A DNA stretch of 23,981 bases from a virus. Each line of letters opens with the position of its first letter. Position 1 is the first letter of the stretch. Shown here piece after piece: positions 5,569-22,007 of this stretch. The notes under the pieces are model-generated. The model did no database searches and was not told where the DNA came from. It saw only the letters and a program-made list of their open reading frames with translations. The stretch lies in IMG/VR virus record IMGVR_UViG_3300006109_000040, positions 1 to 23,981 of that record. One strand, 5' to 3'. The position numbers and the translations under genes are program-made.

Positions 5569-8088
5569 ATGGCTGGCGGATCATGCAATTATTGTTGCGT
5601 TCCTTGGGGTTGCTGGCCGCCAGTATGCCCAACAGGTGGTTGCTCAGGGAATTGCTGCTTTAGTGGCGGTTGCTGCTCTAGTGGTGGTTGTTGCTATAGT
5701 GGGGGTGGGTGCTGGTGTGGATGCCATTGGCCTTGCAATAGCGGAAGTGGACACTTTCAACCTCCTGCGCCTCCGCCGCCTCCGCCTGTTTGCACGTATC
5801 AGCCTCCTGCGCCATCTCCTGCGCCATCACCATCACCTGTTTGCAATAGCCCGCCTGATTGCATCCCCATTTGTATTCCTCCTATTTGCGAGCCTGTCTG
5901 TGGTCCAGTAGGTGGACCGGGTGGCCCCGGTGCATGCTGCACGCCTATTAAATCACCTGTTTGTACGGGTCCAGTTTGTACTGGTCCAGTTTGTACTGGT
6001 CCAGTTTGCAGCGGGCCTGTTTGTACTGGTCCAGTTTGTACTGGTCCAGTTTGCAGCGGGCCTGTTTGTACGGGTCCAGTTTGCAGCGGGCCTGTTTGTA
6101 CTGGTCCAGTTTGTACTGGTCCAGTTTGCAGCGGGCCTGTTTGTACTGGTCCAGTTTGCAGCGGGCCTGTTTGTACGGGGCCAGTTTGTACTGGTCCAGT
6201 TTGTACGGGTCCAGTTTGCAATAGCCCACCTGACTGTATTCCCATTTGCATTCCGCCTATTTGCGAGCCAGTTTGCGAGCCAGTTTGTGGGCCTGTTTGC
6301 GGTCCTATAGGCGGACCAAATGGCCCAGGTGCATGTTGTATACCTGTTGAGCCCCCAATCTGTTATGGGCCAGTTTGCTGTGAGCCAATATGTACTCCTC
6401 CAGTCTGCTGTGGGCCAGTATGTACTCCTCCAGTTTGCTGTGGGCCAATATGTACTCCCCCAGTTTGTGCTCCTCCAGTCTGCTGTGGGCCAGTATGCAC
6501 CCCTCCAGTTTGTTGTGAGCCTATTGCTTGCTGCATACCTATTTGTATTCCACCTATATGCGCGCCAGTATGCTGCGCCCCAACATGCGACTGCATTCCT
6601 ATTGTTTGCGTAACTTGCTGTGAACCAACTTGCTGTGAGCCTCCAGTTTGCTGTGAGCCTCCAGTTTGTTGTGAGCCACCCCCTTGCTGTATCCCTACTA
6701 TTTGCATAACTTGCACTAAACCAGTTTGTTGTGAGCCACCCCCTTGTTGTGAGCCACCCCCTTGCTGTATCCCTACTATTTGTATAACTTGCACTAAGCC
6801 AGTTTGTTGTGAGCCGCCCCCTTGCTGTATCCCTACTATTTGTATAACTTGCACTAAACCAGTTTGTTGTGAGCCACCCCCTTGTTGTGAGCCTCCAGAT
6901 TGCTGTGAGCCAGCATGCTGCTGCAAGTCTAAAGGCTGCAAGTCTAAAGACTGTAAACCTAAAGACTGTAAGCCCAAAGACTGTAAGCCTAAAAATTGCA
7001 AGCCTACATCGCCTAAAGGCAGCTGCAATAATAGTGGCGCTTTGCCTACAACGCATGGCAAGCCTATAACCGGCGCTTTAAAAGATCAAAACCTAACATC
7101 AAAAGCTGATTATAGTAAAGATCAACTTGAGCAACTTAAACAACTTTTTCCAATGAAAGCTGAGGGCGGCGCCATGAGTTTATGTGTTGAAGAAGCTAAA
7201 AAAGGGATTTTTGCAAATCCTAGTTATGGTATTCCCAATATAGAGATTGTGGGCGATCGACCTGTATATGGCGGCATCAAAGAGACGCAGCCTATACAGC
7301 CTGATGCAGTGCCTTATGCAAATGTACCTGGGTTGCCTAGCAATTTTTTGCCTAATTTACCTACTACACCCACGGAAAAAGCAGAATCTGCAACACCTGA
7401 GCCTATGCCTGGCGCTTTACCTACAACTACAAATAGTCAAACCTGCAATGATTATAGTGTGCACAACACTACGGCGCCTGAAGGGCACATTCCTACAGCG
7501 CCGCAGCATAAGCACTTGCAAACGCAAGGAAGTGCATATGAAATGCAACTTCAGCAATTGCGGCATTTGTATCCGCAAATTGGCCACTTGCATCCTTGTG
7601 TAATGTCTTCATTGGCGGGGATTGACAATCAAGGCGCCCTGCCTAAGGCCGCAACGGGCGGCAGCATATCTTCAATTTTGGGAAATACAGGAATGCCAGG
7701 CGCTACACGTTCTGCAAGTCCTAATGTTTGCTATGGCAACCCATTGTCGCCTAATGCAAAGCTGCACCCACAAAACTTGAATACAGGCGGCGTTCCCGGG
7801 CATCACCCCGAGTTCATTACCGGCGCCACCGGCCATTATGTAAAAGGCAAAGGCGATGGTCAAAGTGATGACATCCCGGCCATGTTGGCTGATGGCGAAT
7901 ACGTGTTTGACGCCGATACTGTGGCTGCATTGGGCAATGGCTCCAGCGACGCAGGGGCAAAATTGCTAGATCATTTTAGAGAAGCTTTAAGAGAGCATAA
8001 ACGAGCAGCGCCAAGTGATAAAATACCACCTGCAGCTTCGCCATTGCAATATATGAAAGAAGCCCTCAAACGGCATAAGGGGAAATAA
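5569..8088 (+). CDS. Hyper-cysteine, proline-rich repeat virion-region protein
   Basis: 839 residues with AAGG before the ATG. By hand count about 116 of the first 485 residues are Cys, an extreme value. Layout: Gly/Cys-rich head (1-60, many CC pairs); Pro-rich linker; a first copy of CNSPPDCIPICIPPICEPVC (92 on); 18 PVC units (130-217); a second copy of that segment (217 on); a long CC/EPP/GPVCC zone with three 20-residue units (about 375-440); CKSKD/CKPKD repeats (452-479). The last 350 residues are ordinary soluble protein with four Cys and end in HPEFITGATGHYVKGKGDG, DDIPAMLADGEYVFDADTV and LQYMKEALKRHK, a C-terminus I associate with phage structural proteins. No signal peptide. The tail probably ties it to the particle while the Cys region forms a cross-linked or metal-binding structure (inference). 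Confidence 0.85.
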   Translation: MAGGSCNYCCVPWGCWPPVCPTGGCSGNCCFSGGCCSSGGCCYSGGGCWCGCHWPCNSGSGHFQPPAPPPPPPVCTYQPPAPSPAPSPSPVCNSPPDCIPICIPPICEPVCGPVGGPGGPGACCTPIKSPVCTGPVCTGPVCTGPVCSGPVCTGPVCTGPVCSGPVCTGPVCSGPVCTGPVCTGPVCSGPVCTGPVCSGPVCTGPVCTGPVCTGPVCNSPPDCIPICIPPICEPVCEPVCGPVCGPIGGPNGPGACCIPVEPPICYGPVCCEPICTPPVCCGPVCTPPVCCGPICTPPVCAPPVCCGPVCTPPVCCEPIACCIPICIPPICAPVCCAPTCDCIPIVCVTCCEPTCCEPPVCCEPPVCCEPPPCCIPTICITCTKPVCCEPPPCCEPPPCCIPTICITCTKPVCCEPPPCCIPTICITCTKPVCCEPPPCCEPPDCCEPACCCKSKGCKSKDCKPKDCKPKDCKPKNCKPTSPKGSCNNSGALPTTHGKPITGALKDQNLTSKADYSKDQLEQLKQLFPMKAEGGAMSLCVEEAKKGIFANPSYGIPNIEIVGDRPVYGGIKETQPIQPDAVPYANVPGLPSNFLPNLPTTPTEKAESATPEPMPGALPTTTNSQTCNDYSVHNTTAPEGHIPTAPQHKHLQTQGSAYEMQLQQLRHLYPQIGHLHPCVMSSLAGIDNQGALPKAATGGSISSILGNTGMPGATRSASPNVCYGNPLSPNAKLHPQNLNTGGVPGHHPEFITGATGHYVKGKGDGQSDDIPAMLADGEYVFDADTVAALGNGSSDAGAKLLDHFREALREHKRAAPSDKIPPAASPLQYMKEALKRHKGK
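5842..5940 (+). repeat. Left flanking copy of the segment bracketing the PVC array
   Basis: Codes for residues 92-124, opening CNSPPDCIPICIPPICEPVC and closing in a GGPGGPGACC stretch. A second, slightly longer copy lies at 6217-6339, directly after the PVC array. The DNA copies are clearly related but diverged, mostly at third codon positions. Confidence 0.8.
5956..6219 (+). repeat. 15-base tandem array coding PVC(T/S)G pentapeptides
   Basis: Seventeen full 15-base units and a final partial one, in frame, encode PVCTG or PVCSG, with 18 Cys spaced exactly five residues apart. Unit variants (CCTGTTTGTACGGGT, CCAGTTTGTACTGGT, CCAGTTTGCAGCGGG) occur in mixed order. This suggests expansion by slippage or unequal recombination of blocks of units rather than of one unit. 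Units are contiguous with no spacers. Confidence 0.95.
6217..6339 (+). repeat. Right flanking copy of the segment bracketing the PVC array
   Basis: Codes for CNSPPDCIPICIPPICEPVC, then an extra EPVCGPVC-like insertion, then GGPNGPGACC. It is the partner of 5842-5940, so the array sits between two related segments in direct orientation. Confidence 0.8.
6691..6888 (+). repeat. 60-base tandem units coding IPTICITCTKPVCCEPPPCC
   Basis: Three copies start at 6691, 6769 and 6829. The first carries an extra 18-base EPPPCC segment, so spacings are 78 and 60 bases. The copies differ by only a few bases, indicating recent duplication. Each 20-residue unit has six Cys, mostly as CC pairs. Confidence 0.9.
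6922..7005 (+). repeat. 15-base tandem units coding CK(S/P)K(D/G/N)
   Basis: Residues 452-479 repeat Cys-Lys-x-Lys-x, with Cys every five residues, the same period as the PVC array but strongly basic. This gives the protein a positively charged, Cys-spaced segment between the CC/EPP zone and the ordinary C-terminal part. Confidence 0.9.
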
Positions 8089-8089
8089 C

Positions 8090-9508
8090 ATGGCAGCACT
8101 CTGTTCTATAACGCCAGTTGGTGCTTGCGCAACGCCTACTGGCACAGTTGGTGCGTCGCCCCCTAGTGGCCAACTTGTAAGTATGCAAGTGTGTAACCTT
8201 GCTTGCTCAGTTGGCGCGCCGCCTCCCGTAACAGGCTTTCATGTGCTAACTCCTGGGCTAACTGGGGCTTTGCCTACATCATCTCCTACGCTTAATAATC
8301 CTATTGTTGGAGGTGCGTCTACGCTAAACACGCCAACTTCAACCCCTGCGCCTTGCCTTGGTGTTACAACCGGCTCGCATGGGGGTTGCAGTATTTTGCA
8401 AGGTAAAGCATTGCCCTGCATTACGACTAAGTCAAGTCAAGTAACTGCGGCGCCAAAGTTTTACACTGACTTTTTAAATAACATTGCTACTGCAGGGGCT
8501 TGTGTAGCTGCTAACGCCCACTATGTTGGGGCAACACCTCTGCAACAGGCCGCGTGGTGCAAAGTTGCTGCTTGCCAAGGCAATTACAAAGGCGCCCTTT
8601 GCGCTGCCAAGAATGTTACTACCGGCGTGCAAAATGCATGTCTTAATCAGCAGGCTCAAAAATACATGAGCCCTTATGTGCATTGCGTAGTAAATCAAAT
8701 TGGCGCCCTTGGGCAAGCCAATATCATGAATAACATTGGCCCTCAGGCCAACGCCGGCATTGTCGGCTCGGGGCAATTTGGCTCAACTCGAGGTGCAACG
8801 GCTTTGGGGCAAGTTCTTTCAAACGCTGCCCTAGGCTTAACGGCGCAACAATCCTGCGCTCTGCAAAAAGGCTACACACAAGCACTATGCACGGCCAAGT
8901 CGCAAGAAAACATGCAACTGGCAGCGGCGAACCAAGGCATTTGCGAGGCCAAGACCACTCAGGCTTTGAGTTTGAACTGCGCCAACGCCTTGGCGACCAT
9001 GGGCGCGCAGCAACAAACCATTGCGCAAAACGCCCAATGCTATCCAATGAAGCAACTGGTTACAGAGTCCAACTTGCTCAAAGGCTACAGCATTCCAGAA
9101 AGCACTTCTTCTTCCTACACTGGGCCTATTCCTGGTGCCTACTCCGCATCTCTGTTGCAACAACTTACTGGCGCCGGTGCATTGGCCAAGGGTCTTATGT
9201 GCGCTTACAAAACGTATAAGTGTATTGCTAAAGGCAGTGGCAGTGGTGGTAAAGGCAGCGGCGGTGGGGGTAGCGGCGGCGGAGGTAGTGGCGGTGGGGG
9301 CGGCTGTAAGGGTGGAAGCGGTGGCGGTGGCGGCTGCAAAGGGCCTGCTTGTGTTGGCACATCCGGCGGTGACCCATGTCAACCAGTTTGCTGCCCACCA
9401 TCTTGCTGCGAACCATCTTGCTGCTGCTCTGGTTGCTGCTCAAGCTGCTGCTCTGGTTGCTGCTCAAGCTGCTGCTCTGGTTGCTGCTCCGGTGGCTGCT
9501 GCGGTTAA
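8090..9508 (+). CDS. Second cysteine-rich virion-region protein
   Basis: 472 residues, start one base after the previous stop, with AAGGGG before the ATG. The middle (KFYTDFLNNIATAGACV, then VGATPLQQAAWCKVAACQGNY, then GALGQANIMNN, then GQFGSTRGATALGQVLSNA) looks like a helical phage structural protein of a kind common in podovirus-type virion operons. It is peppered with single Cys, including MCAYKTYKC. The C-terminus is a Gly-Ser linker (about residues 383-420) followed by QPVCCPPSCCEPSCCC and three CCSGCCSS-type repeats ending in GGCCG. The CCxPxCCEP motif echoes the neighbouring 839-residue protein, so the two may join through these tails (inference). No signal peptide or membrane segment is seen. 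Confidence 0.8.
   Translation: MAALCSITPVGACATPTGTVGASPPSGQLVSMQVCNLACSVGAPPPVTGFHVLTPGLTGALPTSSPTLNNPIVGGASTLNTPTSTPAPCLGVTTGSHGGCSILQGKALPCITTKSSQVTAAPKFYTDFLNNIATAGACVAANAHYVGATPLQQAAWCKVAACQGNYKGALCAAKNVTTGVQNACLNQQAQKYMSPYVHCVVNQIGALGQANIMNNIGPQANAGIVGSGQFGSTRGATALGQVLSNAALGLTAQQSCALQKGYTQALCTAKSQENMQLAAANQGICEAKTTQALSLNCANALATMGAQQQTIAQNAQCYPMKQLVTESNLLKGYSIPESTSSSYTGPIPGAYSASLLQQLTGAGALAKGLMCAYKTYKCIAKGSGSGGKGSGGGGSGGGGSGGGGGCKGGSGGGGGCKGPACVGTSGGDPCQPVCCPPSCCEPSCCCSGCCSSCCSGCCSSCCSGCCSGGCCG
9421..9492 (+). repeat. 24-base tandem repeat coding Cys-pair tail
   Basis: Three adjacent 24-base units at 9421, 9445 and 9469. The first two are identical and the third differs only in its last bases (CCGG for CAAG). 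They encode alternating CCSG and CCSS at the extreme C-terminus of the second Cys-rich protein. Confidence 0.95.
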
Positions 9509-12773: not shown

Positions 12774-12952
12774 CATGGTGCTTGCTGCGCGTCACTGATG
12801 GCCGTTTGGTACTGCGCCACCAATGCTAGCTCGACCTTAACAGCCTGTAAAGCTGTTGTAAGGTCATTTATTGAGTGATTTTGCCTTAATAGGCTCATCA
12901 CAAAAGTACGAAGTAGGGCCTCTGAGGGACTGCTTAAACTTGTGTCAGCCAT
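12773..12952 (-). CDS. Small 59-residue protein at the end of the early block
   Basis: Reads MADTSLSSPSEALLRTF, then VMSLLRQNHSINDLTTALQA, and ends QTAISDAQQAP. The ATG lies 19 bases inside the end of the thymidylate-synthase-family gene. The stop TGA overlaps the T-run of the opposing terminator. Composition is that of a small helical soluble protein. No strong Shine-Dalgarno is seen, so translation would rely on coupling. Without it the 160 bases after the synthase gene would be empty, unusual in this dense block. Function unknown. Confidence 0.55.
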   Translation of the reverse strand: MADTSLSSPSEALLRTFVMSLLRQNHSINDLTTALQAVKVELALVAQYQTAISDAQQAP

Positions 12953-13719
12953 TTTGAAAACTCAAAGTAAGGGTTGATGGACTTTTCAATGAGATTGTGC
13001 GCTTCGTAGCGAAAGATTCTTGGCGGTGGGTCTGTCAAGGGTACATGTTGACTTTGGCTAAGAATGGAGTTGAACATCTCAACTCGAGATTCATAGACGT
13101 GGAAAGACCCCACCGAAACAGTTAAGGTTCCAACACTGGCGTTAAGCAACGCGGCTATAATTTCCTGCAGGAAACTGAATGTTGGTATGTCATTAGCCAT
13201 GCCCCATAGAATGTCCTGAGACCTCATAATGGCACGAGCATTAAGGTAACCACCACGCAGTCTAAATTCAATCGCCAGTGTGCACGGAACATCCTTGGCG
13301 TCAAGGTCCATATGATCAGCGTCAGTGCCATACATTGGTATGACAGCCCGACGGCTCATAGGGTCATCGCTTAATAGTTTGACAATATGTTTGACCCCGT
13401 GACGGCCAAACCAATAGCTACCATAATTGCTATTAAGCTTTCCATTTGCGACAATCTTCCCCCACTGCTTCGCATGGTCAGCAATAGACAAATCGTTAGG
13501 GTCAGCATGGATATACCAAGCCATTTCCCGCTTAAGATAGGAAAGATTGAAGTTGCGGCCGGCGAAAGAATTAAAACGGACATAAGGAGCAAGAGAATAA
13601 GTAAAATTCTCGATCTCCAAAGTACGCTCACCTCTTGGGGCTGTCCATTTGCCGTCTTTTGCAAGGGCTCGGTAAAGCCAGATAAGGTCTTTTTCATAAT
13701 TGATTTGCGTAATTTCCAT
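12934..13719 (-). CDS. Thymidylate-synthase-family enzyme, predicted dCMP hydroxymethylase
   Basis: 261 residues from ATG at 13719; an in-frame ATG at 13749 is possible, but neither has a clear Shine-Dalgarno. Family features (numbered from 13719) are LNSNYG near 95-100, DPMSRR near 119-124 (phosphate-binding Arg pair), catalytic Cys146 in VPCT, MRSQD near 165-169, and SFHVYE near 205-210. The order and spacing resemble T4 gp42 (INSNYG, NPDSRR, MRSNDVVFG, SLHVY). At the site where thymidylate synthases have Asn to read uracil (E. coli N177) this protein has Asp177 in GMANDIP, as in dCMP hydroxymethylases. The expected reaction is dCMP plus methylene-tetrahydrofolate to 5-hydroxymethyl-dCMP; a dCMP methyltransferase is the main alternative. 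It follows the kinase fusion with a 26-base overlap. Confidence 0.8.
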   Translation of the reverse strand: MEITQINYEKDLIWLYRALAKDGKWTAPRGERTLEIENFTYSLAPYVRFNSFAGRNFNLSYLKREMAWYIHADPNDLSIADHAKQWGKIVANGKLNSNYGSYWFGRHGVKHIVKLLSDDPMSRRAVIPMYGTDADHMDLDAKDVPCTLAIEFRLRGGYLNARAIMRSQDILWGMANDIPTFSFLQEIIAALLNASVGTLTVSVGSFHVYESRVEMFNSILSQSQHVPLTDPPPRIFRYEAHNLIEKSINPYFEFSKWLTQV

Positions 13720-14638
13720 GGTCAGTATGTGTGATTGAGTAAGGTTCATCAGGGTAGTGCTGCATGTGGTGCAACGGGGGAGGGAGCTTAGTAACTTTGA
13801 TGCCGTTATTAAGCGCCCATGTATATGCGTTATTGCCTAACGCAAAGATTCTGGAGGGTCGCAGCGCCTTTAAAAAGGCCGGGTCCAATGGAACCCCTTG
13901 GTATGTTTGAGTGTTGATCCAGTAAAGTTTGGATTCACTTACGCCTTCATTGTCCAAGGTCGCTGCCAGCATACGGCTGGGGCCGTCATTATCCAAGAAG
14001 TTGATGAAAGGCACAACCACGGCAGAGTCTTTGACATTGGCCCTAGGCCCGCGGTCACACAGCATAAGCATATTGCCTTCATTAAAGCAACCACCACCGC
14101 TGGCTTTATTTTCAATTGTTGCCCGTGATAGATGGGCCAGCAATTCATCAACACTGTCTTCTTGATAGTTGTAGTGAATGACTGGCAAGGCCGTGTGCAG
14201 GTCCAAAAGCTCATAGTCACCGTACACATCTTGTAATTGTGTAGGAGTGTCTAAGTACTCATCATTGATTCTGCTTTTAAAAGTTTTTAGGCAGGTTTCA
14301 AAGTCAGGCAGGCAGTTGATGACAACGGCGCCGCGGGAAAGGGCCACACGCTCAAGCATACGCTTTCTTGGTGTGTCAATACGATTCAAGCCATCACGGT
14401 AAGCATTGCCGTAAATAGGCTCAGACAGCCAGGACCTGTCCATGATAACTATGTCATCGTGCGTCAATGCAGGGGTCATGCCCCTAAAATAAATTTTGCA
14501 CAGATGCTCGGATGTCAAATCTCTATATGGGCCATGCTTAACAATGTGCACCAGCTTGTTGCCTTGCAACTTTTGTCTAAGGGTCTCGGCAAGTGTGGTC
14601 TTGCCAGCCCCATCAGGACCTTCCAGGATGATTATCAT
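13694..14638 (-). CDS. Thymidylate-kinase-like dNMP kinase fused to a uracil-DNA-glycosylase-like domain
   Basis: 314 residues from ATG at 14638 (a TTG two codons earlier is less likely). Residues 1-170 are a dTMP-kinase-type P-loop domain: GPDGAGKTT at 7-15 and MDRSWLSEPIYG at 66-77 (DR motif). Residues about 188-300 look like the UDG superfamily: LCDRGPR at 192-199 where family 4/5 enzymes have a GExPG loop, VPF at 209-211, a strand YWINTQ at 239-244, ALGNNA at 266-271 (usual LGxxA), and HHMQHYP at 290-296 near the expected HPS-type motif. Catalytic residues of the UDG motifs are not clearly kept. It lies between the glycosyltransferase and synthase genes with overlaps on both sides. The kinase probably phosphorylates the modified dNMP; the second domain's role is unknown. 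Confidence 0.75.
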   Translation of the reverse strand: MIIILEGPDGAGKTTLAETLRQKLQGNKLVHIVKHGPYRDLTSEHLCKIYFRGMTPALTHDDIVIMDRSWLSEPIYGNAYRDGLNRIDTPRKRMLERVALSRGAVVINCLPDFETCLKTFKSRINDEYLDTPTQLQDVYGDYELLDLHTALPVIHYNYQEDSVDELLAHLSRATIENKASGGGCFNEGNMLMLCDRGPRANVKDSAVVVPFINFLDNDGPSRMLAATLDNEGVSESKLYWINTQTYQGVPLDPAFLKALRPSRIFALGNNAYTWALNNGIKVTKLPPPLHHMQHYPDEPYSITHTDHGNYANQL

Positions 14639-15524
14639 TTGCAAATCTCTCTAACTTTTCTAATGTCATATGTAATGACTCGACTTTTAAGTCCATGCTT
14701 TGCGCTATGGCAATCATTTCCAATTCATAGCGGTCTAGGCTTTCCAAGAAGTCTAGTGTATAGCTATAAGACTGAGCAATCATGCCTAATTCAAGTGGGT
14801 TGCCACCGAGGACACATCCGGCAGCTGCAGCGTGCAAATACCGAACTCGCCACCATCCACACCCTGCATGAGCGTAGGTTGGACATAAAACTCCATAATA
14901 AGACCCATATTGCCAAACAACATCACTTTCCAGTATTCGTGCTTGTCCGAGAGATTTACCTCCAATTGAATGTATAGGCCACTTAAGGCTTTGAGCGCTG
15001 GCCCATTCATGTGCTTCCCTTGAAAGTGATGCGTTATACCAAGCTTGCTTGCGTTGTTGCCAAGATTGCTTATACACAGGCGGCATTTCATACAAGCAAG
15101 ATGGGTCCCATTGCAAAATGTTTGCAACAGGTAAATTCATTTTAGAAACATTGCCCCATGAAAAGAGCGGCGCAATCCAGGTGCGGTCTGTAAGCGCATC
15201 CAGATCGATCTTATCTTTCCATGTGGGCAATATCTTTTGAAACGCCCAGTCATCAAGACAAATATACGCGTCAGGTCTTTGCTCCAACACGTATATGGCA
15301 TTGTCCGGTGCAATGGCATTTCCATCCAGCGGATAAACATACACAAACACGGCGTCATACATGCTAAGATCTTCGCCAAGCTTTACATAGCGATGATCCA
15401 CATTGTAGCCAAGACGACCATAACCCTTGGCCATAAGCTCGGGGATAGACACAAACTTGGTTGAGCTAGCTCTATCAGGTTTATTGATATGCGTCTCGGT
15501 AACGCCGGTTATGAGTATGTTCAT
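14613..15524 (-). CDS. GT-B-like glycosyltransferase, possibly DNA-modifying
   Basis: 303 residues. The start ATG overlaps the previous stop (ATGA), so translation is coupled. The N-terminus MNILITGVTET, then FVSIPELMAKGYGRLGYNVDH, then YDAVFVYVYPLDG looks like the first Rossmann half of a GT-B enzyme. The segment GCGWWRVRYLHAAAAGCVLGG (222-241) matches the donor-binding helix-loop of nucleotide-sugar transferases (Arg-x-x-x, then Ala-rich, then GC/S), followed by a strand and ELGMIAQSYSYTLDFLESLD. Beside the dNMP kinase and the synthase-family enzyme it may glycosylate a hydroxymethylated base, as T4 alpha- and beta-glucosyltransferases do. It could instead act on another substrate. Its 3' end overlaps the kinase gene. 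Confidence 0.65.
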   Translation of the reverse strand: MNILITGVTETHINKPDRASSTKFVSIPELMAKGYGRLGYNVDHRYVKLGEDLSMYDAVFVYVYPLDGNAIAPDNAIYVLEQRPDAYICLDDWAFQKILPTWKDKIDLDALTDRTWIAPLFSWGNVSKMNLPVANILQWDPSCLYEMPPVYKQSWQQRKQAWYNASLSREAHEWASAQSLKWPIHSIGGKSLGQARILESDVVWQYGSYYGVLCPTYAHAGCGWWRVRYLHAAAAGCVLGGNPLELGMIAQSYSYTLDFLESLDRYELEMIAIAQSMDLKVESLHMTLEKLERFANDNHPGRS

Positions 15525-21111: not shown

Positions 21112-21483
21112 TTATAGCCCCTTGGCGGTATTGATAAGTTTTTCAATAGCCGGCTCGGGTGGATGCCAACCTTCTGGTTTGATGACATGCTTTTCATTGT
21201 CAGCAATTTGCTTTTGCATGTTTGCATGATGCACGGCCTCAAAGATCTCCTCAAAAGGTAACCCCATAGCATGTGCACAGCCCATAGCAACGTAGACCAA
21301 GTCAGCCAAAGCATCGGCGGCGTCAACAATGGATTCACGTTCATTGGCGCGCATGAACTCACTAAGCTCTTCAAGCATGAAGCGTGAGAAGTAGCTCACA
21401 TCGGCTGATTGCAAAAGCGTTGGCGTTGCCGACACAGCCAGGTTCATCTTTTTACGAAAGGTTCTAACTAGTTTGTACATCAT
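21112..21483 (-). CDS. MazG-like nucleotide pyrophosphohydrolase
   Basis: 123 residues, all-helical. Metal-binding motifs are LEELSEF (Glu38, Glu39, Glu42) and DAADALADLVYVAMG (Asp54, Asp57, Asp61), followed by GLPFEEIFEAVHHANMQK, the usual layout of MazG/PRA-PH-type enzymes that hydrolyse NTPs to NMP and pyrophosphate. T4 dCTPase (gp56) belongs to the same broad superfamily. With the predicted dCMP hydroxymethylase downstream, removal of dCTP is an attractive role, though dUTPase or house-cleaning activity is equally possible from sequence. ATG at 21483 is chosen because it overlaps the preceding stop (ATGA). Its 3' end supplies the next gene's Shine-Dalgarno. Confidence 0.85.
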   Translation of the reverse strand: MMYKLVRTFRKKMNLAVSATPTLLQSADVSYFSRFMLEELSEFMRANERESIVDAADALADLVYVAMGCAHAMGLPFEEIFEAVHHANMQKQIADNEKHVIKPEGWHPPEPAIEKLINTAKGL

Positions 21484-22007
21484 GCGGCCTTTAATTGTTG
21501 TTTGTCCATAGAGTTCCAAATTTGTTGGAGCCAATAGGGGGGTGTTGCAACGCCTTTGTAGTAGACCATGTCCATACGGTCACGTTTGCTGGCGTAAAAG
21601 TGTTGGTATGACTCGATGGGGTCGTTGGTTTTGTATTCGTCGGGCATGGCCAATGGGGGAGGCTGCCAAGAAAACTTAGCTTTTTGCAATACAGGCGGCG
21701 CAACTTGCAATTCGGCCACAAGGATTTCGTGTGACTTGTGGTGCTTGCCGTAACGTTTGAAGAATTCACGGCCAAGGCCTGAGGCTAACTCGGCCAGCCA
21801 GTCGTAATGAGCCTTGGACTGACGGGCCCAGATGTTGCTTGGATGATTGATATGCGTTGGCTTATAGGAAACCATATGGCCATTGCCATGATGATGGTGC
21901 GCCGTGGCCAGCATTTGGCATGACTCGATAAGCATTTTGCCGACATGTTTGTCGCAATGCATGCCGGCTGCAATACGTGGCAAGTGATGGAGATAGAAGA
22001 TGTTCAT
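21480..22007 (-). CDS. Conserved phage protein with CDKHVGKM motif
   Basis: 175 residues from ATG at 22007, behind TTTTTGAAAGGTATTGT. The N-terminus MNIFYLHHLPRIAAGMHCDK, then HVGKMLIESCQMLATAHHHH, then YKPTHINHPSNIWAR, and the C-terminus PPPLAMPDEYKTN, then ESYQHFYASKRD, then TPPYWLQ, match a family I have seen as hypothetical proteins in many phages. The abundance of conserved His and Asp (CDKHV, HHHHGNGH, THINHP) suggests a metal-dependent enzyme or DNA-repair factor, but I know of no proven activity. It is the first gene after a hairpin and promoter-like element (22036-22066) and is coupled to the MazG gene. Confidence 0.75.
   Translation of the reverse strand: MNIFYLHHLPRIAAGMHCDKHVGKMLIESCQMLATAHHHHGNGHMVSYKPTHINHPSNIWARQSKAHYDWLAELASGLGREFFKRYGKHHKSHEILVAELQVAPPVLQKAKFSWQPPPLAMPDEYKTNDPIESYQHFYASKRDRMDMVYYKGVATPPYWLQQIWNSMDKQQLKAA

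Follow-up and report, generated by a model that had tools for sequence, protein, structure and literature searches.

The C-terminal domain of the kinase described here has the UDG-superfamily fold and is fused to a dNMP kinase. The fold itself is known; the kinase-UDG protein is a recurrent, unnamed two-domain enzyme that goes under the name of thymidylate kinase. A sequence-only reading of this DNA had proposed a UDG-like domain joined to a dNMP kinase, and the structural, profile and recurrence evidence supports that pairing more strongly than was claimed. As to function, the domain is tentatively explained as a base-sensing, probably non-excising module serving a 5-hydroxymethyl-dCMP (5hm-dCMP) kinase.

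Organization of the locus

The window (the whole stretch of DNA analysed) comprises 23,981 bases of virus record IMGVR_UViG_3300006109_000040 and represents part of a tailed-phage genome. PolA, nuclease and helicase genes of the minus strand are followed by three overlapping genes at 14613-15524, 13694-14644 and 12934-13749 (Table 1). The middle one encodes the fusion and is listed with 316 residues from a TTG codon; the ATG at 14638-14636, two codons in, is the likelier start since all 12 aligned window-clade relatives begin there. The region singled out by the sequence-only reading, 13694-14110, corresponds to residues 179-316 of this protein.

The window clade comprises 80 loci encoding the domain and 65 distinct proteins. 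Its members were taken from viral contigs (in one scan, the best 80 of 186) and are loci L002-L025, L027 and L033-L087; excluded were L001 and L088, both nearly identical to the window, the partial locus L026, L028, which has only the kinase, and L032, which is the window. The order upstream gene, fusion and TS homologue, with the genes nearly touching, is kept in the 80 loci, and in all of them the upstream gene ends at most 120 nt from the kinase start.

No meaningful match to the upstream gene was obtained in Pfam, PDB or NCBIfam. As a putative glycosyltransferase it received no support from these three databases or from comparison with the alpha-glucosyltransferase of phage G; its C-terminal GCGWWRVRYLHAAAAGC stretch resembles a glycosyltransferase by eye only. 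The MazG/PRA-PH-like protein is possibly the dCTPase of the pathway, and in Stenotrophomonas phage AXL3 a phrog_671 relative is located directly before the kinase. Elsewhere in the window, the ORF at 5569-8088 (plus strand, 839 residues) contains long repeats rich in Cys and Pro, built of GPVCTGPVC and CCEPPPCC units and unusual in a phage gene, and the next ORF, 8090-9508, also presents Cys-rich repeats at its C-terminal end.

Table 1. Features of the kinase-UDG locus, with positions in the window
Feature	Position	Strand	Basis
TS-family pyrimidine hydroxymethylase, predicted dCMP 5-hydroxymethylase	12934..13749	-	ORF overlaps the fusion ORF; PDB matches, Asp at TS Asn177 position
Conserved upstream gene of the same operon, without assigned family	14613..15524	-	phrog_14998, unknown function
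MazG/PRA-PH-like nucleotide pyrophosphohydrolase	21112..21534	-	Pfam PRA-PH 7.9e-16; phrog_671
P-loop dNMP kinase domain, residues 1-175, predicted 5-hydroxymethyl-dCMP kinase	14120..14644	-	Pfam, PHROG, model; substrate suggested by the adjoining hydroxymethylase
UDG-superfamily-fold domain, residues 183-316	13694..14098	-	AlphaFold2 model, Foldseek, VIA-align, hhalign; homology with the domains of AXL and DSL
Asp197, in the place of the catalytic Glu of family-4 UDG motif 1 (GExPG)	14054..14056	-	hhalign via the DSL clade
Pro212-Phe213, UDG PF-motif position	14006..14011	-	Invariant in 65/65 window-clade and 42/42 DSL proteins
Asn244, end of strand YWIN, base-reading Asn position (N123 of E. 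coli UDG)	13913..13915	-	Residue counts
Pro289, motif-2 His position, His lost	13778..13780	-	Pro in 65/65 distinct window-clade proteins

Fold of the C-terminal domain

The motif order of UDG families 4 and 5, on which the sequence-only reading was built, is present with all of the named stretches between residues 193 and 298: LMLCDRGP (193-200), PF (212-213), YWINT (241-245), ALGNNA (268-273) and PPPLHHMQHYP (288-298). The AlphaFold2 model of the full-length protein (pLDDT 88.7, pTM 0.89) matched thymidylate and deoxynucleoside kinases in Foldseek and, as kinases filled this search, the domain was also modelled alone, with a mean pLDDT of 69, a pTM of 0.69 and parts of the stretch from motif 1 to PF below 50. 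With this second model, rows 1-41 of the Foldseek search were all members of the UDG superfamily, the best being 1ui1 (E 6.2e-5, TM 0.52), and VIA-align ranked family-4 UDGs and UdgX first (4zbx with Z 9.5, rmsd 3.7, 123 aligned residues and 11% identity). Structure prediction, on which the sequence-only reading had staked its assignment, thus returned the UDG fold.

Profile comparison by hhalign with cellular UDGs of families 4 and 5 (14 sequences from the 12 genomes searched) gave scores of 32 for the window clade, 43 for the DSL-LC01-type (DSL) clade and 59 for the AXL3-type (AXL) clade, with E values, each for a single comparison, of 1e-4, 1.4e-6 and 1.6e-9. The highest of 100 match-column shuffles scored 21, 23 and 22, respectively; all of the true scores are above these, and a chance resemblance to UDGs was ruled out. 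An earlier control also shuffled gap columns, and there the AXL alignment gave a score of 133 with one of 60 shuffles, which exceeds the true score; this is taken as an artefact of the gap columns.

The window domain had no match of its own in Pfam, where the UDG cut-off was not reached, or in PHROG. PF03167 was matched by 26 of 44 domain sequences at E<=1 (best 0.0014), the window domain not being one of them, and PDB sequence searches with the domain profiles retrieved no UDG; one was retrieved only with the domains of phage G and SPO1. Because the motif-2 His is absent and the Pfam UDG score is below the cut-off, the domain is set outside family-4 UDG.

Distribution of the fusion

The fusion was identified in four phage groups: the window clade, the AXL3-type phages, the DSL-LC01-type phages and Bacillus phage G. 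Named carriers are Stenotrophomonas phage AXL3 (gp29), Pseudoxanthomonas phage PW916, Caudoviricetes MW202621, Actinomycetia phage DSL-LC01 and Bacillus phage G (gp315). With the DSL-LC01 protein as query, 65 viral loci were retrieved, encoding 42 distinct proteins. Another full-length relative, L175, is found in a contig binned with a betaproteobacterium; it was one of 16 loci, the other 15 matching the kinase part only.

Between clades, hhalign gave E values of 7e-13 for DSL and AXL, 6e-6 for the window clade and DSL, and 9e-42 for the window clade and AXL, the last being inflated because L089 belongs to the AXL set and is also a row of alignment A6. The C-terminal domain of phage G gp315 scores 48.2 bits against Pfam UDG, above the cut-off of 24.3, and the window domain is homologous to it by position and fusion.

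Scans with the domain alone covered 160 loci (the best 80 of 124 and the best 80 of 90, partly contigs already present in the earlier scans). In 156 of them the domain is in frame with a P-loop motif and the other four are cut by a contig end, which argues that the domain works with the kinase. Stand-alone versions beside DNA-modification genes, a search proposed in the sequence-only reading, were looked for, and no free-standing domain occurs among these 160 domain-retrieved loci. Kinases without the domain adjoin similar TS homologues, with Asp-type hydroxymethylases in Pelagibacter phage HTVC119P and Gordonia phage Sixama, so some phages can run the pathway without the domain. The kinase tree, weakly supported, is compatible with one or more origins of the fusion. 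No description of a kinase-UDG fusion was recognised in a literature search of titles and abstract starts, and the only database trace of the architecture is phrog_761, which covers phage G gp315 from end to end and is named thymidylate kinase.

Pocket residues and charge

The sequence-only reading found the catalytic positions not obviously conserved. This does not apply to the motif-1 acid, the PF and the Asn, invariant in the 65 distinct proteins of the window clade, and is correct for the motif-2 His, which is gone from all of them. The acid is Asp in the window clade and in 42 of 42 DSL proteins, Asp or Glu in five of five AXL-type proteins and Gln in phage G; the Glu of GExPG in family-4 UDG motif 1 is catalytic. 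In the direct alignment of the window domain with UDGs, Asp197 falls one residue off this Glu, and the DSL alignments put both in the same column; the register being insecure in the direct alignment, the two residues are equated through the DSL link in hhalign. The PF motif stacks the base in UDGs. The strand Asn was counted in 41 of 42 DSL proteins, one having been missed by the regular expression.

At motif 2, HPQ is present in all 42 DSL and all five AXL-type proteins and is followed by basic residues, whereas the window clade lacks both the His and the following Arg residues. The net charge of the window-clade domain ranges from -6 to 0 (58 distinct sequences) and is never positive; the means are +2.4 for cellular UDGs of families 4 and 5 (n=14), +0.9 for DSL and -3.0 for AXL. 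A pocket that is kept, with the His replaced in 65 of 65 proteins and no positive charge, fits base binding without DNA binding or excision. AXL and DSL keep the motif-2 His, so excision is possible there. The Asn at this position of E. coli UDG reads uracil rather than cytosine, according to an excerpt of PMC3989344.

The modified base

The best PDB matches of the TS homologue that adjoins the fusion are the CMP hydroxymethylase MilA (E 5e-20) and the T4 dCMP hydroxymethylase (E 8e-12). The dUMP enzyme of SPO1 likewise has MilA as its best PDB match, so this match alone is not decisive. At the position of TS Asn177 the window enzyme has Asp, which was also identified in 79 of 81 loci by pattern (two unmatched), in all ten aligned phage enzymes and in the hydroxymethylase of 64 of the 65 DSL loci, the remaining one giving no hydroxymethylase match. 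The controls SPO1, M6 and phiW-14, phages that make 5hmU or its derivatives, have Asn at that position. Asp in the adjoining enzyme versus Asn in the three 5hmU phages points to a cytosine-modification operon, and a thymine hypermodification (5hmU) setting was rejected on this comparison. In T4, Asp179 is the determinant of dCMP over dUMP, a comparison made from the PDB alignment together with an excerpt of PMC6400193.

In the available part of the AXL3 paper (PMC7504290), the DNA of this phage is cut by two of 37 enzymes, TasI and Tru1I, with sites of A/T only, and resists the other 35, all of them with G/C in the site. As AXL3 has the same operon, cutting confined to A/T-only sites suggests that cytosine (or guanine) is modified. 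The neighbour of the fusion is a predicted dCMP 5-hydroxymethylase and probably modifies cytosine. The placement of the domain within a base-modification operon, made in the sequence-only reading, agrees with this neighbour; the uracil or thymine chemistry that it implied, with dUMP as lead substrate, is probably wrong in view of the dCMP-selecting Asp and the cutting of AXL3 DNA.

A dCMP deaminase was identified in 63 of the 65 DSL loci and in the seven other carriers examined, and in none of the 80 window-clade loci (phmmer with the AXL3 sequence, flanks of up to 6 kb). AXL3-type operons also present a class-I methyltransferase near the MazG-like gene and the fusion (L029 6602-7426, L089 3838-4710 and L175 6679-7326), which perhaps modifies the base further. 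The TS homologue may hydroxymethylate or methylate its substrate; the DNA of phage Xp12 contains 5mC (excerpt of PMC7653180). Vibrio phage VAP7, of the Ackermannviridae, has a TS homologue with Asp (L094 2341-3240) and may for this reason modify cytosine rather than thymine.

The kinase part, residues 1-175, matches Pfam PF02223 Thymidylate_kin (E 2.1e-7, 31.3 bits, above the cut-off of 27) and the thymidylate kinases of phrog_761 (E 1e-23), and stays below the threshold of the dTMP kinase equivalog TIGR00041 (36.8 bits versus 83.25). With a cytosine-type hydroxymethylase beside it, its substrate is most likely 5hm-dCMP. The mean identity within the window clade is 0.687 for the kinase part and 0.753 for the UDG-like domain, which is under no less constraint than the kinase.

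Possible roles of the domain

From the computed features (the fusion, its recurrence, the UDG fold, the cytosine-type hydroxymethylase, the retention of pocket positions without the motif-2 His, and the absence of positive charge) we infer that the kinase takes 5hm-dCMP and that the domain serves it by binding rather than cutting. The adjoining hydroxymethylase would make 5hm-dCMP and the kinase part would activate it; the UDG-fold domain would use the old glycosylase pocket to hold a pyrimidine, as a mononucleotide or in nascent modified DNA, and would gate, present or localise the kinase so that the modified nucleotide, and not the ordinary one, proceeds to the triphosphate. The constant attachment to the kinase and the retained base pocket, together with the loss of the His and of positive charge in the window clade, are best read as those of a pyrimidine sensor. 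UdgX, which is among the best structural matches, has a PDB entry with dUMP (6ajp, by title), and the superfamily can read 5hmC, as described for Brig3 in an excerpt of PMC13160076. The conservation of the acid and the Asn counts against this reading since a mere binder might not need them.

The acid, the PF and the uracil-type Asn, together with the fusion to a soluble nucleotide enzyme and the UdgX entry with dUMP, would also suit a nucleotide-level N-glycosidase that cleanses the pool, in which unwanted mononucleotides are hydrolysed by the domain and only 5hm-dCMP is passed on by the kinase attached to it. Its targets could be unmodified dCMP or 5hm-dUMP, into which the dCMP deaminase of the DSL loci and of the other carriers could turn 5hm-dCMP, and the enzyme would be the UDG-fold counterpart of human DNPH1. 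This is unlikely, given the loss of the motif-2 His in the window clade and the failure to find the deaminase in the flanks searched there; moreover, known UDGs act on DNA and are not known to act on dNMPs. The wider notion of the UDG fold as a mononucleotide proofreader, cleaving the base from a wrong monophosphate (5hm-dUMP, dUMP or plain dCMP) or sensing that monophosphate within the very protein that phosphorylates the correct one, is equally doubtful; if true, the phage would check a non-canonical nucleotide before building it into DNA. It is quite unlikely that the domain is an inactive fold acting as a tether, with a surface for protein interactions by which the kinase is kept within a complex for nucleotide synthesis or replication. 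UDG-like domains are indeed fused to other DNA-synthesis enzymes (the SPO1-group DNA polymerase, the DnaE-annotated gene of Aeromonas plasmids and the phiLo polymerase), but residues D197, F213 and N244 of the pocket are invariant, which such a scaffold would not require.

A DNA glycosylase proper, removing 5hmU (deaminated 5hmC) or unmodified cytosine or uracil from phage or host DNA while the kinase supplies the correct nucleotide, is improbable. Members of the superfamily do excise 5hmU and 5hmC (human TDG with 5hmU, 4fnc, is among the VIA matches; for Brig3, the excerpt of PMC13160076), the AXL and DSL domains keep the acid, PF, Asn and HPQ with the basic residues, and the domain of phage G is a Pfam-grade UDG. 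It would leave the fusion to a dNMP kinase unexplained, however, and neither the lack of free-standing copies among the 160 loci nor the window clade, without His and following Arg residues and never net positive, agrees with it; this activity is less likely in the window clade than in AXL and DSL, where it is more conceivable. Highly improbable is the ordinary thymidylate pathway, a thymidylate synthase and a thymidylate kinase whose C-terminal extension would be irrelevant; this is the annotation in AXL3 and other phages and the reading of the AXL3 paper itself (PMC7504290, in part). The database names favour it; against it count Asp and not Asn in the TS-like enzymes, MilA and T4 dCMP hydroxymethylase among their best PDB matches, the 35 enzymes with G/C sites that AXL3 DNA resists, and an extension as conserved as the kinase.

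Comparison with known systems

The family-4 UDGs (UDGa; Thermus 1ui0/1ui1 and Sulfolobus 4zbx) and UdgX have in common with the window domain the fold, the motif order and the acid, PF and Asn positions. The window domain differs in lacking the motif-2 His, in falling below the Pfam cut-off, in not being positively charged and in being fused to a kinase.

Phage G gp315 (phrog_761) likewise contains kinase and UDG in one protein, with a dCMP deaminase, an Asp-type TS homologue and an alpha-glucosyltransferase in nearby genes. Unlike the window domain, that of phage G has QNPG in place of the acid and HPAYVKRF, besides being a Pfam-grade UDG, and the protein is annotated only as thymidylate kinase. 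No work on hydroxymethylcytosine in phage G DNA was found in a literature search judged by titles.

The kinases of AXL3 (gp29), PW916, MW202621, L089, L175 and DSL-LC01 are homologous fusions with a common operon logic, and differ from the window protein in keeping HPQ. The DSL and AXL operons add a dCMP deaminase, and the AXL-type ones also the class-I methyltransferase and the MazG-like enzyme, whereas another conserved gene is located upstream in the window clade.

SPO1 gp31 and the phiLo family-A DNA polymerase also present a UDG-like domain on a DNA-synthesis enzyme of a phage with modified DNA (for phiLo, by the title of 9qhs only). The partner enzyme differs from that of the window, and the modified base of SPO1 replaces thymine. 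SPO1 gp31 (L210 4462-5760) has its domain fused to the SPO1-group DNA polymerase. PDB entry 9qhs_A, a phage family-A DNA polymerase "with modified template", is a VIA match to the window domain (Z 8.2), and no paper on the phiLo polymerase was found in the literature search. Further UDG-like matches (H99-H116) are located on Aeromonas and Azospirillum plasmids, those of Aeromonas under a gene annotated DnaE.

The anti-phage glycosylases Brig1 and Brig3 are members of the UDG superfamily like the window domain, and read modified cytosine; unlike it, they belong to host defence and are free-standing, active DNA glycosylases (excerpt of PMC13160076).

Significance for phage DNA modification

The carriers of the fusion are phages that probably modify cytosine, and the reading of the AXL3-type operon is corrected from thymine to cytosine chemistry. 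The kinase-UDG protein may be a checkpoint that admits only the modified building block into viral DNA, which suggests that phages police modified nucleotides before incorporation. Together with the polymerase domains of SPO1 type, it gives a hint of repeated reuse of the glycosylase fold in DNA synthesis, each time to read modified bases.
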